Shown here one piece after another: positions 1,269 through 4,953 of a stretch of 5,201 nt of DNA. Source of the stretch: Spirochaetaceae bacterium (GTDB lineage: Bacteria; Spirochaetota; Spirochaetia; Treponematales; Breznakiellaceae); NCBI GenBank assembly GCA_031280455.1, contig JAITGR010000248.1, positions 1 through 5,201 on the forward strand. Reading direction: 5' to 3'. The stretch's first letter is position 1. Each line of letters opens with the position of its first letter. A program made the translations under genes and the position numbers. The notes beneath the pieces were generated by a model. The model saw only the letters and a list, made by a program, of their open reading frames with translations, was not told where the DNA came from and made no database searches.

Positions 1269-2708
1269 ATGATTTCGTTTCTAGTTGGAATTGCCGCACT
1301 GATAGTTGGCTATCTTGTGTACGGCAAAATTGTGGAAAAGGTGTTTGGCATACGGCCGGAGGCGCAAACCCCCGCGGTACGAATCCACGACGGTGTTGAC
1401 TTTGTGGTAATCCCCACCTGGCGGGCTGTGCTGATTCAGTTTTTGAACATCGCCGGCACCGGCCCGATATTCGGCGCAATAGCCGGAGCGCTCTTTGGCC
1501 CCGCGGCATTTGCCTGGATAGTGCTGGGCTGTATCTTCGGCGGCGCGGTGCACGACTATTTCTGCGGCATGCTCAGCCTGCGCAACGACGGCACCACCAT
1601 AGCCGAAATCGTCGGCAAGTACTTAGGCACGGTGCCCAAGTACATAATGCGCGTGTTTTCCGTCGTGCTGCTTATCTTTGTGGGCGTTGTGTTTGTGTAC
1701 ACCCCCGCGCAGGTCTTGAACACGCTCATTGACCCCGCCAACCAAAGCATTTTTACCATAGCGCTGACCATCATCATCGCCTACTACATACTGGCGACCA
1801 TCCTGCCCATCGATAAAATCATCGGCACCCTGTACCCGCTCTTTGGCGCGGCGCTGCTCATTATGGGCATCGGCATAACGCTGATGCTCTTTTTAAGCGG
1901 CGAAATAGCGAACATACCAGAATTTTCGTTTGCGAACCTGCACCCCAAAGGCGTATCCGCCTTTCCGTTCCTGTTCATCTCGATAGCCTGCGGCGCGATT
2001 TCCGGCTTCCACGCCACGCAGTCGCCGCTTATGGCGCGGTGTATTAACAGCGAAAAAGCAGGCCGCAGCGTGTTTTACGGTGCCATGATAATCGAAGGCA
2101 TCGTCGCCATGATTTGGGCGGCGGCGGCCATCGGCCACTTTGGCGGCGTGGAAGGACTCGCCGGTGCCGGCAGCGCCCCCGTCATTGTAACCAAAGTATC
2201 CACCGAGCTTATGGGCATCATCGGCGGCGCGCTCGCCGTACTGGGCGTTGTAGCCTGCCCGATAACCTCCGGCGACACCGCGTTCCGCAGCGCCCGCCTG
2301 GCCATAGCCGACGCCCTGAAATTCGACCAAAAGCCGATAAAGAACCGCTTTATGATAGCGCTCCCGCTCTTTGCCATAGGCATATTACTCGTCGTATGGT
2401 CGCAGACCGGCAAAGACAACTTTGCCATCATCTGGCGCTACTTTGCCTGGTCTAACCAAACCCTGGCGACCATCGCGCTGTGGTCGGCAAGCGCCTACCT
2501 GGCCAAAACCGGCAAATGCTACTGGATAACGCTGCTGCCGGCAACATTTATGACCGTTGTGGTAACCTGCTACATCATTGTCGCCAAAGAAGGCTTTGGC
2601 CGCCCCTACAACGTCGGCCTCATAGCCGGAATCGTGCTGGCCGCCGTGCTGTTCGCGCTGTTTGTACCGTTCATCGGCATAAAGCAAAAAGGCGTACTAA
2701 AAGAGTAG
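1269..2708 (+). CDS. cstA: CstA-family carbon starvation transporter (pyruvate or peptide uptake)
   Basis: This 479-residue integral membrane protein of the CstA family is predicted to import pyruvate or small peptides by a cation-coupled mechanism (E. coli CstA and BtsT are the characterised members). About 12-13 hydrophobic segments are visible, e.g. 1-18, 55-76, 78-98, 128-148, 161-180, 188-209, 268-290, 313-330, 361-378, 385-410, 419-438 and 448-470. Family signatures are intact: WRAVLIQFLNIAGTGPI (51-67), GGAVHDY (91-97), SGFHATQSPLMAR (245-257), ITSGDTAFRSARL (332-344) and WRYFAWSNQTLA (389-400). It is much shorter than E. coli CstA (about 700 residues) and matches the short form common in anaerobes and Gram-positives. 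The start is fixed by AGGAGGA at 1258-1264 and by the N-terminal membrane helix. It has its own promoter and no co-transcribed partner. The exact substrate cannot be told from sequence. Confidence 0.92.
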   Translation: MISFLVGIAALIVGYLVYGKIVEKVFGIRPEAQTPAVRIHDGVDFVVIPTWRAVLIQFLNIAGTGPIFGAIAGALFGPAAFAWIVLGCIFGGAVHDYFCGMLSLRNDGTTIAEIVGKYLGTVPKYIMRVFSVVLLIFVGVVFVYTPAQVLNTLIDPANQSIFTIALTIIIAYYILATILPIDKIIGTLYPLFGAALLIMGIGITLMLFLSGEIANIPEFSFANLHPKGVSAFPFLFISIACGAISGFHATQSPLMARCINSEKAGRSVFYGAMIIEGIVAMIWAAAAIGHFGGVEGLAGAGSAPVIVTKVSTELMGIIGGALAVLGVVACPITSGDTAFRSARLAIADALKFDQKPIKNRFMIALPLFAIGILLVVWSQTGKDNFAIIWRYFAWSNQTLATIALWSASAYLAKTGKCYWITLLPATFMTVVVTCYIIVAKEGFGRPYNVGLIAGIVLAAVLFALFVPFIGIKQKGVLKE

Positions 2709-2737
2709 GCCGTTATACCGGGGAGGGAGCGGGCGCA

Positions 2738-2762
2738 TGCCCACCGGAGGAGCCGGTGGGCA
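2738..2762. terminator. GC-rich hairpin 29 bp after the cstA-family stop; possible mRNA 3' end
   Basis: TGCCCACCGG pairs perfectly with CCGGTGGGCA (ten base pairs) around an AGGAG loop. It is the first hairpin after the gene and could end or protect the transcript. No T-run follows, so it is not a canonical intrinsic terminator. Confidence 0.4.
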
Positions 2763-2781
2763 CCGCGCTTTCCGTTCCAAT

Positions 2782-2802
2782 CTTTTTGCGTACCGCAAAA
2801 AG
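2782..2802. repeat. Perfect 9-bp inverted repeat, TAC loop
   Basis: CTTTTTGCG (2782-2790) and CGCAAAAAG (2794-2802) flank TAC. It is the second hairpin of the array. It lacks the GC-RNA-GC core of its neighbours but has the same three-base loop size. Confidence 0.8.
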
Positions 2803-2826
2803 TATTTCCACTGCAATCGCTTGCGC

Positions 2827-2860
2827 TGTTCAAAATCCGCAGCCATGCGGATTTTGAACA
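2827..2860. repeat. Perfect 15-bp inverted repeat, GCCA loop
   Basis: TGTTCAAAATCCGCA (2827-2841) pairs with 2846-2860 around GCCA. The loop and right arm contain CCATGCGGATTTT, the same 13 bases found in the two linker repeats at 2921-2933 and 3045-3057. The hairpin and the linkers therefore share an origin. It abuts the next hairpin with no spacer. Confidence 0.9.
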
Positions 2861-2885
2861 TGGTGTTTGGCAAAGCCAAACACCA
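2861..2885. repeat. Perfect 11-bp inverted repeat, core GC-AAA-GC
   Basis: TGGTGTTTGGC (2861-2871) pairs with GCCAAACACCA (2875-2885) around AAA. It follows the previous hairpin at the very next base. Confidence 0.9.
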
Positions 2886-2898
2886 CACTTGGTTACCA

Positions 2899-2916
2899 GC
2901 CGCCATCCATGGCGGC
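2899..2916. repeat. Perfect 7-bp inverted repeat, TCCA loop
   Basis: GCCGCCA (2899-2905) pairs with TGGCGGC (2910-2916) around TCCA. The sequence GCCGCCATCCATG at 2899-2911 recurs at 3037-3049, where it leads into the second linker copy. Confidence 0.7.
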
Positions 2917-2918
2917 GC

Positions 2919-2934
2919 ATCCATGCGGATTTTC
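2919..2934 (+). repeat. Linker repeat, copy 1 of 2
   Basis: The 16 bases ATCCATGCGGATTTTC occur here and, identical, at 3043-3058, 124 bp apart. Its first 12 bases are a small palindrome (ATCC-ATGC-GGAT). A 13-base part is also in the hairpin at 2827-2860. It sits between the hairpin at 2899-2916 and the run of abutting hairpins at 2949-3040. Confidence 0.8.
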
Positions 2935-2948
2935 AGCTTGGTGAGTTT

Positions 2949-2972
2949 GCCAAACCGCGCAGCGGGTTGGGC
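2949..2972. repeat. Imperfect inverted repeat, core GC-GCA-GC
   Basis: GCCAAACCGC (2949-2958) pairs with 2962-2972 around GCA, with one bulged base on each side (A2952 and G2966). It has the same core as its neighbours and looks like a decayed member. It ends exactly where the next hairpin begins. Confidence 0.6.
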
Positions 2973-2999
2973 TTTGAGTTGCGCGCAGCGCAACTCAAA
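2973..2999. repeat. Perfect 12-bp inverted repeat, core GC-GCA-GC
   Basis: TTTGAGTTGCGC (2973-2984) pairs with GCGCAACTCAAA (2988-2999) around the GNA-type loop GCA. It abuts hairpins on both sides with no spacer. Confidence 0.9.
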
Positions 3000-3026
3000 A
3001 CTTAAAACGGCGAAGCCGTTTTAAGT
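3000..3026. repeat. Perfect 12-bp inverted repeat, core GC-GAA-GC
   Basis: ACTTAAAACGGC (3000-3011) pairs with GCCGTTTTAAGT (3015-3026) around GAA. The centre is GCGAAGC, the well-known exceptionally stable DNA mini-hairpin. Confidence 0.9.
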
Positions 3027-3040
3027 CGGCATCCGTGCCG
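3027..3040. repeat. Short 5-bp inverted repeat, TCCG loop
   Basis: CGGCA (3027-3031) pairs with TGCCG (3036-3040). It is short enough to be chance taken alone, but it starts at the base after the previous hairpin and leads into the second linker copy. Confidence 0.45.
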
Positions 3041-3042
3041 CC

Positions 3043-3058
3043 ATCCATGCGGATTTTC
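3043..3058 (+). repeat. Linker repeat, copy 2 of 2
   Basis: Identical over 16 bases to 2919-2934. It is preceded by GCCGCC as in the hairpin at 2899-2916, so the shared unit is longer than the exact match and partly scrambled. Confidence 0.8.
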
Positions 3059-3071
3059 GGCATTTGACCTT

Positions 3072-3104
3072 GCTTGTAGTTTACGCAAAGCGTAAACTAC
3101 AAGC
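3072..3104. repeat. Perfect 15-bp inverted repeat, core GC-AAA-GC
   Basis: GCTTGTAGTTTACGC (3072-3086) pairs with 3090-3104 around AAA. This and the hairpin at 2827-2860 have the longest perfect stems in the array. Its last two bases (GC, 3103-3104) are also the first two of the next hairpin, so the two cannot form fully at once. Confidence 0.92.
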
Positions 3105-3127
3105 CCAAAGTGCGCAGCACTTTGGGC
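3103..3127. repeat. Perfect 11-bp inverted repeat, core GC-GCA-GC
   Basis: GCCCAAAGTGC (3103-3113) pairs with GCACTTTGGGC (3117-3127) around GCA. It is the last hairpin of the array and ends 21 bp before the -35 box of the argA-region promoter. Confidence 0.9.
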
Positions 3128-3148
3128 AGTGGGCGCTGTGTGGAATTG

Positions 3149-3177
3149 TTGACAAATTTGTTCAGTATCCCTATGCT
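3149..3177 (+). promoter_or_regulatory. Sigma-70-type promoter for the acidic ORF and argA
   Basis: A perfect TTGACA (3149-3154) is followed after 17 bp by TATGCT (3172-3177, four of six matches). The expected start near 3184 gives a leader of about 55 nt. No other promoter is apparent before argA, so the acidic ORF and argA are probably one transcript. Confidence 0.65.
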
Positions 3178-3186
3178 TTTTATCTG

Positions 3187-3231
3187 AAGTGAGCTTTGGT
3201 CGCTTGCTTGAAATCGTTTTTTTTTTTGGAG
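3187..3231 (+). promoter_or_regulatory. Leader with a weak hairpin, 11-T tract and Shine-Dalgarno of the acidic ORF
   Basis: AAGTGAGC (3187-3194) can pair with GCTTGCTT (3202-3209) over eight pairs, two of them G-U in RNA. Seven bases later there is a run of eleven T (3217-3227) directly before the Shine-Dalgarno GGAG (3228-3231), seven bases from the ATG. The hairpin is too weak and too far from the U-run to call a terminator with confidence, but an attenuator is conceivable. The homopolymer could change length by slippage and shift the promoter-to-ribosome-site spacing. Confidence 0.35.
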
Positions 3232-3238
3232 TTTAAGT

Positions 3239-3541
3239 ATGAGATTGGACACATTCGAGACAGATATTAAAAACAGAATATTTGTTTTTGCGTATTTGGT
3301 GCCGGCCTGTGCCGCGCACGATGACGAGGACGAAATGGATGACGACGACGACGAATTCGAGGACGAATTCGACGACGACGATGATGAGGACTTTGACGAC
3401 GACGATGAGGACGACGACGATTTTGACGACGACGACGATGATTTTGACGACGACGACGATTTTGACGACGATGACGACGACGATTTTGACGAGGACGAGG
3501 ATGACGACGACGGCGAATACGACGACGAATTCGATGACTAA
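3239..3541 (+). CDS. Extremely acidic, Phe-punctuated poly-Asp protein or leader ORF (100 aa)
   Basis: No family is recognised. Residues 1-26 are ordinary (MRLDTF...). A short hydrophobic stretch (IFVFAYLV, 14-21) is followed by PACAA, which could be a weak signal peptide cut near residue 25. Residues 28-100 are almost only acidic: of 73 residues 51 are Asp and 11 Glu. The rest are Phe (40, 44, 52, 62, 69, 75, 83, 98), Tyr94, Gly92 and Met33, so an aromatic residue interrupts every 4-11 acidic ones. The start is backed by GGAG at 3228-3231 with seven-base spacing and by an upstream promoter. The stop lies 12 bases before argA, and both are in the same frame. It could be an exported cation binder, a regulatory leader peptide for argA, or an expanded GAN repeat with little function. 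Translation is likely and function unknown. Confidence 0.65.
   Translation: MRLDTFETDIKNRIFVFAYLVPACAAHDDEDEMDDDDDEFEDEFDDDDDEDFDDDDEDDDDFDDDDDDFDDDDDFDDDDDDDFDEDEDDDDGEYDDEFDD
3320..3538 (+). repeat. GAN trinucleotide tract encoding the acidic region
   Basis: These 73 codons are mostly GAC or GAT with some GAG or GAA, interrupted by TTT or TTC about every 15-30 bases (units such as GACGACGACGATTTT). Slippage here in steps of three would keep the frame open, so length variation between strains is expected. Confidence 0.85.
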
Positions 3542-3553
3542 TCGCGTGCCGCT

Positions 3554-4885
3554 ATGAGCGTCCAGCCCGCCATCGACTTTGTGCGAGACGCATTCCGGTA
3601 CCAAAACCGGTTTAACGGCTCCACAATGGTCTTCAAAATAGATTTTCCCGTAACCGAAGACGCAGGCTTTGCCTACGTAATCCGCGACCTCGCGTTGCTG
3701 GTTAAGTCGGGCATACGCGCCGTCATTGTCCCAGGCTGCGCCGAATGGATAGACGCGGCGCTGGAACGGCAGCACTTGCACAGTGAGTACCTGGACGGCG
3801 AGCGCATCACCTGCGAGGCGGCGATGCCGTTTGTCGAGATGGCGGCCTTCCACGCCGCCACCCGCATACTCACCGGCCTTTCCGGCAGCCGCGTCGAGGC
3901 GGTTATCGGCAACTTTGTCCGCGCCCGCGCCCGCGGGGTGATAAACGGCGTGGACATGCTGTTAACCGGCGAAGTCGACAAAATCTACGCCAACTCGCTC
4001 AACCGTATGCTGGACGCGGGCATGGCGCCGGTGCTGCCGTGCATAGGCTGGAGCCCCGCGGGAAAATCCTACAACGTTTCCAGCGACGAAATCGCGCTGG
4101 CCGCCTCCAAAGCGCTCTCCGCGGTTAAACTAATCATTATCGCCAAAGGCCCTTTTCTCAAAACCGGCGCGGCGGGCATTACACTGCCGCCGGACGTTCA
4201 ACAGGACGAAAACGGCAGAATAGTCAGGCTAAAGCCCCACGAAGCGGAAGCCGTGCTCGCCCTGGCCGGAAACGGCGGCGAGGGCGGCGCGCGGTGGCCG
4301 GTGCAGTTGGCGCTGGCTACCCGTGCCGCGCGCGCCGGAATTGACCGCGTACACATCATCGACGGCCTGGAAGACGGCGCGCTCCTGCGGGAAATCTACT
4401 CAAACTTCGGCTCCGGCACCATGATATACGCCGGCGAGCAGGAGACGATACGCCCCATCAAGAACGCCGACATTCCCGACCTGCTTCACTTAATGGAACC
4501 GTTTGTCAGGCAGGACATACTCCTGCGCCGTTCCGCAGCGGACATTCAGGAAAAGAAAGACGATTACGTGGTGTTAGAAGTAGACGGCGCGATACGCGCC
4601 TGTGCGGCGCTCCACGACTGGGGGGACAGCCAGGCCGAAATCGCCGCGCTGGCCGCCGGCACGCATTTTTCTGAAATGGGCTATGGCTGGCGCGTTGTTG
4701 AACACCTAATAGCGCGCGCCCGCAAATGTAAATTCAAGCGGGTTTTTGTGCTGACAACCCGCACCCAGGACTGGTTTGAATCGCACGGCTTTTGTGAAAC
4801 ACCGCTTTCTACACTGCCCGAACGCAAACGCGCCCGCTACAACCAAAACCGTAACAGCAAAATATACGCGCTGCCGCTCAGTTGA
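3554..4885 (+). CDS. argA: N-acetylglutamate synthase (amino-acid N-acetyltransferase)
   Basis: It catalyses acetyl-CoA + L-glutamate to N-acetylglutamate, the first step of arginine synthesis, in the cytoplasm. At 443 residues it has the same length and layout as E. coli ArgA. It has an amino-acid-kinase-fold domain (about 24-295), which in ArgA binds arginine for feedback inhibition, then a GNAT acetyltransferase domain (about 297-440). Blocks aligning with E. coli ArgA include VIGNFVRARARGVINGVD (117-134), YNVSSDEIA (173-181), EDGALLREIYSN.GSGT (273-289), RPIKNADI (300-307), ILLRRS (322-327), IRACAALH (347-354), VFVLTTRTQDWFESHGF (397-413) and LPE..ARYN..RNSKIY (421-438). The acetyl-CoA loop is SEMGYG (373-378). 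The kinase-fold GG loop (LGGEAI in E. coli) is replaced by FKIDFPV (27-33). The start has no Shine-Dalgarno sequence. A stop 15 bases upstream in frame blocks extension, so translation is probably coupled to the acidic ORF. No other arg gene is in the window. Confidence 0.93.
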   Translation: MSVQPAIDFVRDAFRYQNRFNGSTMVFKIDFPVTEDAGFAYVIRDLALLVKSGIRAVIVPGCAEWIDAALERQHLHSEYLDGERITCEAAMPFVEMAAFHAATRILTGLSGSRVEAVIGNFVRARARGVINGVDMLLTGEVDKIYANSLNRMLDAGMAPVLPCIGWSPAGKSYNVSSDEIALAASKALSAVKLIIIAKGPFLKTGAAGITLPPDVQQDENGRIVRLKPHEAEAVLALAGNGGEGGARWPVQLALATRAARAGIDRVHIIDGLEDGALLREIYSNFGSGTMIYAGEQETIRPIKNADIPDLLHLMEPFVRQDILLRRSAADIQEKKDDYVVLEVDGAIRACAALHDWGDSQAEIAALAAGTHFSEMGYGWRVVEHLIARARKCKFKRVFVLTTRTQDWFESHGFCETPLSTLPERKRARYNQNRNSKIYALPLS

Positions 4886-4922
4886 GCATGTCCCAAAAAC
4901 CGGTTATTTTCGGGACATGCTC
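4884..4922. terminator. Hairpin overlapping the argA stop codon
   Basis: GAGCATGTCCC (4884-4894) pairs with GGGACATGCTC (4912-4922), eleven perfect base pairs. The 17-base interior includes a small AACCGGTT palindrome and an A-run facing a T-run. The left arm contains two bases of the argA TGA. There is no T-run after it, so it may be a 3' stabiliser or a rho-independent-like end of unusual type. Confidence 0.5.
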
Positions 4923-4923
4923 T

Positions 4924-4953
4924 TGGAGAAACGGCTTAACAGCCGTTTCTCCA
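4924..4953. terminator. Second post-argA hairpin, 13-bp stem
   Basis: TGGAGAAACGGCT (4924-4936) pairs perfectly with AGCCGTTTCTCCA (4941-4953) around TAAC. It starts two bases after the previous stem ends. A T-run is absent on the plus strand. Together the two stems probably mark the end of the argA transcript. Confidence 0.55.

Follow-up and report, generated by a model that had tools for sequence, protein, structure and literature searches.

A composite hairpin array with Flavo-1 and TD-2 matches downstream of cstA in a Spirochaetaceae bacterium

Gene context and anatomy of the array

The window analysed here is a stretch of 5,201 nucleotides (positions 1 to 5,201 of contig JAITGR010000248.1, assembly GCA_031280455.1) from a Spirochaetaceae bacterium. 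It carries an array of hairpins, read on the minus strand, in the interval that separates cstA from a kinase/GNAT operon; the array lies shortly past the cstA stop codon. The best matches to cstA are in Spirochaetaceae and Treponema metagenome-assembled genomes (up to 86%), which, from their names, we take to be of termite gut origin. Like the window, the three closest relatives (L091, L137 and L138) have, as judged by eye, a very acidic ORF directly before the kinase/GNAT gene. In L091 a similar promoter-like site was likewise seen by eye, and no hairpin with a score of at least 7 was found within 900 bases upstream of the gene. The features of the window are as follows.

409-1071: glucosaminidase-type gene
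1269-2708, plus strand: cstA, the gene before the array (PF02554)
2731-2737, minus strand: TGCGCCC, the 3' end motif of the composite element (from the sequence)
2738-2762, minus strand: Flavo-1 hairpin hp1 (palindrome scan)
2764-2820, minus strand: Flavo-1 match (Rfam RF01705), containing hairpin hp2 at 2782-2802
2824-2916, minus strand: TD-2 match (Rfam RF03162)
2827-2860, minus strand: TD-2 hairpin hpB, 15-bp arms, loop GGC against GGA in the family
2861-2885, minus strand: TD-2 hairpin hpA, GC-AAA-GC on the plus strand
2899-2916, minus strand: TD-2 hairpin hp0, loop ATGGAT
2917-2937, minus strand: putative truncated hpB of decayed unit 2, 5' arm and GGA loop without the 3' arm (our reading; D2 repeat)
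2949-2972, minus strand: hairpin in the putative hpA slot of unit 2, GCA loop (plus strand), imperfect arms
2973-2999, minus strand: hairpin in the putative hpA slot of unit 2, GCA loop (plus strand)
3000-3026, minus strand: hairpin in the putative hpA slot of unit 2, GAA loop (plus strand)
3027-3040, minus strand: putative hp0 of unit 2, CACGGATG loop region
3041-3061, minus strand: putative truncated hpB of unit 3 (our reading; D2 repeat)
3072-3104, minus strand: hairpin of putative unit 3, AAA loop (plus strand)
3103-3127, minus strand: hairpin of putative unit 3, GCA loop (plus strand), outer end of the array
3149-3177, plus strand: promoter-like site of the form TTGACA-17-TATGCT, ahead of the downstream operon
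3239-3541: acidic Asp/Glu-rich ORF, no Pfam match
3554-4885: amino-acid-kinase/GNAT gene

An earlier, sequence-only reading of this DNA had described an unclassified array of about eleven hairpins, six of them inverted repeats with AAA, GCA or GAA loops in a shared GC-RNA-GC tip. All six are present with the loops described (2861-2885, AAA; 2949-2972, GCA, with imperfect arms; 2973-2999, GCA; 3000-3026, GAA; 3072-3104, AAA; 3103-3127, GCA), and the array as a whole is real, although our count of its hairpins is about 12. Six palindromes with a score of at least 10 occur in 2709-3238, starting at 2738, 2827, 2861, 2973, 3000 and 3072, where 200 dinucleotide shuffles give 0.005 on average; this set is not identical to the six of the earlier reading, four of which are among them. 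Four palindromes in the same region score at least 12, against none in the shuffles. Folded alone, the minus strand of 2729-3130 greatly exceeds its shuffles in stability, with a z score of -15.1 as DNA and -11.8 as RNA, each against 100 shuffles.

The array is no longer wholly unclassified, since part of it scores above the Rfam cut-offs for two families. The Flavo-1 model (RF01705) matches 2764-2820 on the minus strand with 45.2 bits (cut-off 42; model positions 9-69 of 76), and the TD-2 model (RF03162) matches 2824-2916 on the same strand with 54.6 bits (cut-off 48.7; model positions 1-98 of 98), and we regard it as near certain that 2738-2916 is Flavo-1 plus TD-2. The likeness to Rfam TD-2 lies in hp0, hpA and hpB in that order, and the likeness to Rfam Flavo-1 in the framework around hp2; the complete order of the latter element is framework, hp2, framework, hp1 and TGCGCCC.

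The remainder of the array, 2917-3127, we read as probably two decayed TD-2-like units, also on the minus strand, whose hpA slots would hold two or three hairpins each in contrast to the Rfam family. The array arms are similar to the hpA (..GAGTTTTTGC) and hpB (..TGAAAATCCGC) patterns, a likeness that was judged by eye where the five hairpins of units 2 and 3 are concerned; on our reading, these five and the hpA of the complete TD-2 would make up the six GC-RNA-GC hairpins described earlier. The region of units 2 and 3 gave a single sub-threshold TD-2 match (30.3 bits, 2944-3030), which falls on the plus strand of a nearly palindromic stretch, and our minus-strand reading of both units rests on the GGA loops and the D2 direct repeats. 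From 3127 to 2731, in the direction of the minus strand, the order is two hairpins, a truncated hpB, hp0, three hairpins, a second truncated hpB, TD-2 and Flavo-1. The locus thus differs from Rfam TD-2 in that Flavo-1 comes after the element and two putative decayed units come before it.

The position of the array shortly past the cstA stop codon and the strength of its stems when folded as RNA would suit stem-loops acting in mRNA, whether as a cstA terminator, a 3'-end protector or operon spacers. We consider this explanation quite unlikely. As had been stated before, no array stem is an ordinary terminator with a continuous T-run behind it: in a terminator scan, two of the stems passed loose criteria, with the tails TTGTAGTTTA and TGGTGTTTGG, and neither of these is a continuous T-run.

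Dispersed copies in related genomes

Genome-wide counts were taken from relatives of the window, namely the 195 genomes of the family of G004, the genome with the closest kinase/GNAT protein among them (67%). TD-2 matches were found in 85 of these genomes (above the cut-off in 55) and Flavo-1 matches in 69 (above the cut-off in 43), counts that are low because of strict filters and the few candidates scored per genome. A Flavo-1 start lies directly after hpB in 39 of 119 TD-2 copies, as it does in the window.

The composite takes the form of a dispersed mosaic in G107, G093 and G092, with mostly TGCGCCC at one end, a variable opposite end and extra hairpin modules. The TGCGCCC motif follows 15 of the 18 copies in G107 (two of the exceptions are stretches that are too short, and the third, L225, reads GGCGCCC) and all 23 copies in G120, some of which also have a few bases past the motif in common. 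A single query of the element and its surroundings gave 61 whole or partial matches in G107. Inserts of about 100 bases occupy the hp1 loops of the G107 copies L223 and L229, and some hp1 loops in G120 contain nested hairpins, as judged by eye. Where G120 has about 780 bases at one locus, which contain more than the element, the relative G121 has 26. A gene flanking a G107 locus is present in four relatives; by eye, G106, G111 and G109 have no element beside it, and G007 has other hairpins there. No target duplication was established. An outer inverted repeat, TTCGATTCGG..CCGAATCGAA, appears by eye to surround two of the G120 Flavo-1 copies (L325 and L330).

Such dispersal raises the possibility of REP-type sequences mobilised by a RAYT (Y1) transposase, which we hold to be very improbable. 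In G183 (L304), some 20 nt separate a TD-2 copy from a Y1_Tnp gene of 286 aa; however, among 20 Y1 loci examined, of some 150 Y1 sites listed, this was the only one with TD-2 nearby. Among genomes rich in TD-2, G088 lacks a Y1_Tnp match and G107 does not appear in the set of genomes that have one, with missing contigs as a loophole. We have rejected the RAYT/REP link on these grounds; on present evidence, a Y1 transposase is probably not the mobiliser of these repeats.

On a prophage-like contig of G159 (L199, 2890-9668), seven intergenic TD-2 matches share a single direction, and all seven have a Shine-Dalgarno-like site and a start codon after hp0 on the other strand. The shared direction led us to consider an integron cassette array, which was dropped because the contig carries phage-type genes (head-tail adaptor, minor tail and primase families). 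For stem-loops in mRNA, the placement of these seven copies between consecutive genes, close to stop codons at one flank and to Shine-Dalgarno sites at the opposite flank, is a favourable observation.

BOX, ERIC and BIME-type mosaic repeats are short, modular, palindromic, intergenic and non-coding. The array is alike in all these respects and differs in that no mobilising enzyme was found for it. Flavo-1 was described as a candidate RNA of Bacteroidetes (PMC2864571), and its matches in Flavobacterium psychrophilum lie sense or antisense to transcribed regions indistinctly, with many outside them (PMC9723704); in the available portion of PMC9029176, Flavo-1 is merely listed. In contrast to its Rfam filing as an sRNA, Flavo-1 is here a dispersed repeat with arms that vary in pairs. 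A literature search returned no paper with the words TD-2 RNA, and titles and abstract openings held nothing on TD-2 or Flavo-1 repeats in Treponema; a stem-loop scan of genomes that included T. pallidum reported, in the part available, new families in other genera (PMC1590033).

Paired changes in the arms and strand asymmetry

Arm pairing was surveyed in 119 TD-2 copies of 120 loci, a selection of the relatives' TD-2 matches plus one other. Watson-Crick pairs account for 1489 of 1547 cells in hpB (with 20 G.T, 10 A.C and 28 other) and for 1021 of 1071 in hpA (with 23 G.T, 10 A.C and 17 other); hp0 was partly misparsed in this survey (581 of 714) and was left out. When each cell is scored against the commonest pair of its genome, with related copies counted, the 13 genomes with at least three TD-2 copies yield 273 two-arm, 52 one-arm and 27 other cells beside 1649 unchanged ones. 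Among the two-arm cells, 169 lie beyond a single G.U step, and 104 are of a kind passable via one.

Flavo-1 hp2 in G120 (23 copies, 8 pairs) has nine two-arm and no one-arm cells among 181, and 9 of 759 sites differ in the unpaired framework. In hp1 of the same genome, a one-arm T.G was seen by eye in at least three copies (L325, L327 and L341). The TD-2 copies of G107 fit less well, with six two-arm and four one-arm cells when taken alone.

For comparison, a tRNA control proved uninformative (22 distinct tRNAs, no group of four), and SRP RNA was used instead. Thirty SRP RNA loci of the same family gave 102 two-sided, 50 one-sided and 21 broken cells, against 118, 6 and 5 for hp0 and hpB of 25 TD-2 copies, with hpA excluded because it aligned too poorly; the SRP rows are mostly single genes from different genomes and the TD-2 rows are repeat copies. 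The sequence-only reading had called the arms unrelated. Their letters do differ, but they follow the hpA and hpB patterns of the TD-2 family and vary mostly in pairs, and therefore they are not unrelated. Its suggestion that structure and not sequence is selected or produced agrees with a fold that stays constant while the arms vary.

The mismatches are unevenly divided between the strands. A strand-symmetric scan of 101 units found 25 G.T, 9 A.C and 14 other mismatches on the GGA strand; leaving out one unit, a false positive from a viral contig, there are 24 G.T against 7 A.C (two-sided binomial p 0.003, a value that is too small because the copies are related). The fold of the GGA strand thus seems to be of importance, whether in RNA or in single-stranded DNA. 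Pure DNA copying would be expected to be symmetric, and the wobble asymmetry therefore suggests that selection on one strand also acts.

This G.T excess, which singles out the GGA strand, is in keeping with an explanation in which the GGA-loop strand of TD-2 would give a regulatory RNA able to bind and titrate CsrA, and the array would be a multi-site minus-strand decoy with stems under RNA selection. The RsmE consensus is (A/U)CANGGANG(U/A) (PMC5864733), and it is the match of TD-2 loops to the RsmE/CsrA consensus that brings a CsrA decoy into consideration. The hpB loop reads ANGGAN in 110 of 119 copies, 107 of which are also closed by C-G, csrA was found in 22 of the 24 genomes tried, and all four CANGGANG sites in the window are inside the array and on the minus strand. 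However, four sites per window is mildly above chance (mean 1.9, with at least four in 29 of 200 shuffles), only two of the four belong to hairpins that are complete (hp0 of the TD-2 match and hp0 of unit 2), and hpB of the window has lost GGA, with GGC in its place. Moreover, some genomes that lack TD-2 matches have csrA as well (e.g. G004, G018 and G020), and the TD-2-rich G159 and G187 have no csrA match, although these genomes may be incomplete. Orientation likewise counts against the decoy: in genomes without a Flavo-1 junction, TD-2 copies between codirectional genes are antisense in 22 cases and sense in 4, by mechanically called ORFs. We consider a CsrA decoy unlikely as the main explanation, but a CsrA-type function of the GGA strand may exist alongside rewriting of the DNA, and both may hold.

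Two of these observations also count against stem-loops in mRNA. In genomes with a Flavo-1 junction the orientation bias is not clear (7 antisense against 4 sense), and the wobble excess belongs to the GGA strand, which in standalone TD-2 is mostly opposite the mRNA strand.

Triloop tips and a proposed role of template switching

Loop tips were surveyed in perfect palindromes with arms of at least 9 from 237 Treponemataceae loci, most of which were chosen for holding elements, so that the figures describe the family and not genomes at large. These loci hold 379 distinct palindromes, 166 with a 3-base loop; of the latter, 147 have C-G closure, 103 have GC..GC beside the loop, 112 show R-N-A in the loop when one of the two strands is read, and the complete GC-RNA-GC tip is present in 66. 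In a control of 67 cstA loci (L014-L080, two of which are from spirochaetes by title), 30 of 147 palindromes are triloops, with C-G closure in 11, GC..GC in 4, R-N-A in 12 and both of the latter in 1. The 13 Treponema cstA loci contain 34 palindromes, eight of them triloops (C-G closure 7, GC..GC 4, R-N-A 5, both of the latter 3). The tip that the sequence-only reading took to be shared is therefore frequent in the family but is no fixed rule.

Loops of the GNA type are known to give stable DNA mini-hairpins. Short DNA hairpins of the GCGAAGC kind are stable (PMC10527192), and template switching has been described as homogenising arms and inverting spacers (PMC8604942) and as creating and maintaining stems (PMC8794818). 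We propose that a C-G-closed 3-base R-N-A loop would form an unusually stable DNA mini-hairpin, at whose tip the nascent strand could fold back during replication and copy one arm off the other. A change in one arm would thereby be written into both, and the fold would stay constant as the arms drift; the GGA-loop strand would also be important when folded. For hp0 and hpB of TD-2, which have GGA loops and no R-N-A triloops, the loop type counts against copying primed at the tip.

The likeness to template-switch inverted repeats, as these are described in the available text of PMC8794818 and PMC8604942, lies in two-arm changes with few one-arm intermediates, a pattern found here and weaker in G107. 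The repeats of those reports are rRNA or other RNA genes and yeast coding repeats, whereas here the pattern belongs to a repeat family with a preferred tip. A further difference from what the same portions describe is that loop inversion shows no clear excess over chance here. Of 10 groups in which copies within a genome share the same hpA arms, 5 contain reverse-complement loops, against a mean of 3.0 in shuffled loops (6% of 5000 shuffles reach 5), and this lends weak support to template switching.

Paired rewriting at the DNA level is, with moderate support, the best account of the arms and tips. For the locus as a whole, we see about an even chance that it is a composite dispersed repeat, made up of Flavo-1, a complete TD-2 and two decayed units, with palindromes matched mainly at the DNA level; the models show Flavo-1 and one complete TD-2, the decayed units are our reading, and we infer the DNA-level matching. 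More tentatively, Flavo-1 and TD-2 could be modules of one mosaic DNA hairpin repeat family whose arms are continually rewritten pairwise as C(RNA)G tips prime template switching, in which case much of the covariation would be a product of mutation and no proof of RNA function. Covariation is widely used as the main evidence for functional RNA structure, and the two families, catalogued as RNA, have paired changes with few intermediates and many tips in the DNA-stability pattern. If DNA copying does make much of the covariation, other families defined by covariation would merit a second look, and the Flavo-1 and TD-2 repeats would offer many natural replicates for testing copying against RNA selection.

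Repeats of other kinds were also seen in the window. Before the glucosaminidase-type gene, at 174-232 and 297-360, short motifs of the types TTTCAGA and GACAACTGACAACC are, by eye, repeated in tandem, and a second adjacent pair of long hairpins, without GGA loops, occurs 3' of the kinase/GNAT gene at 4884-4953.
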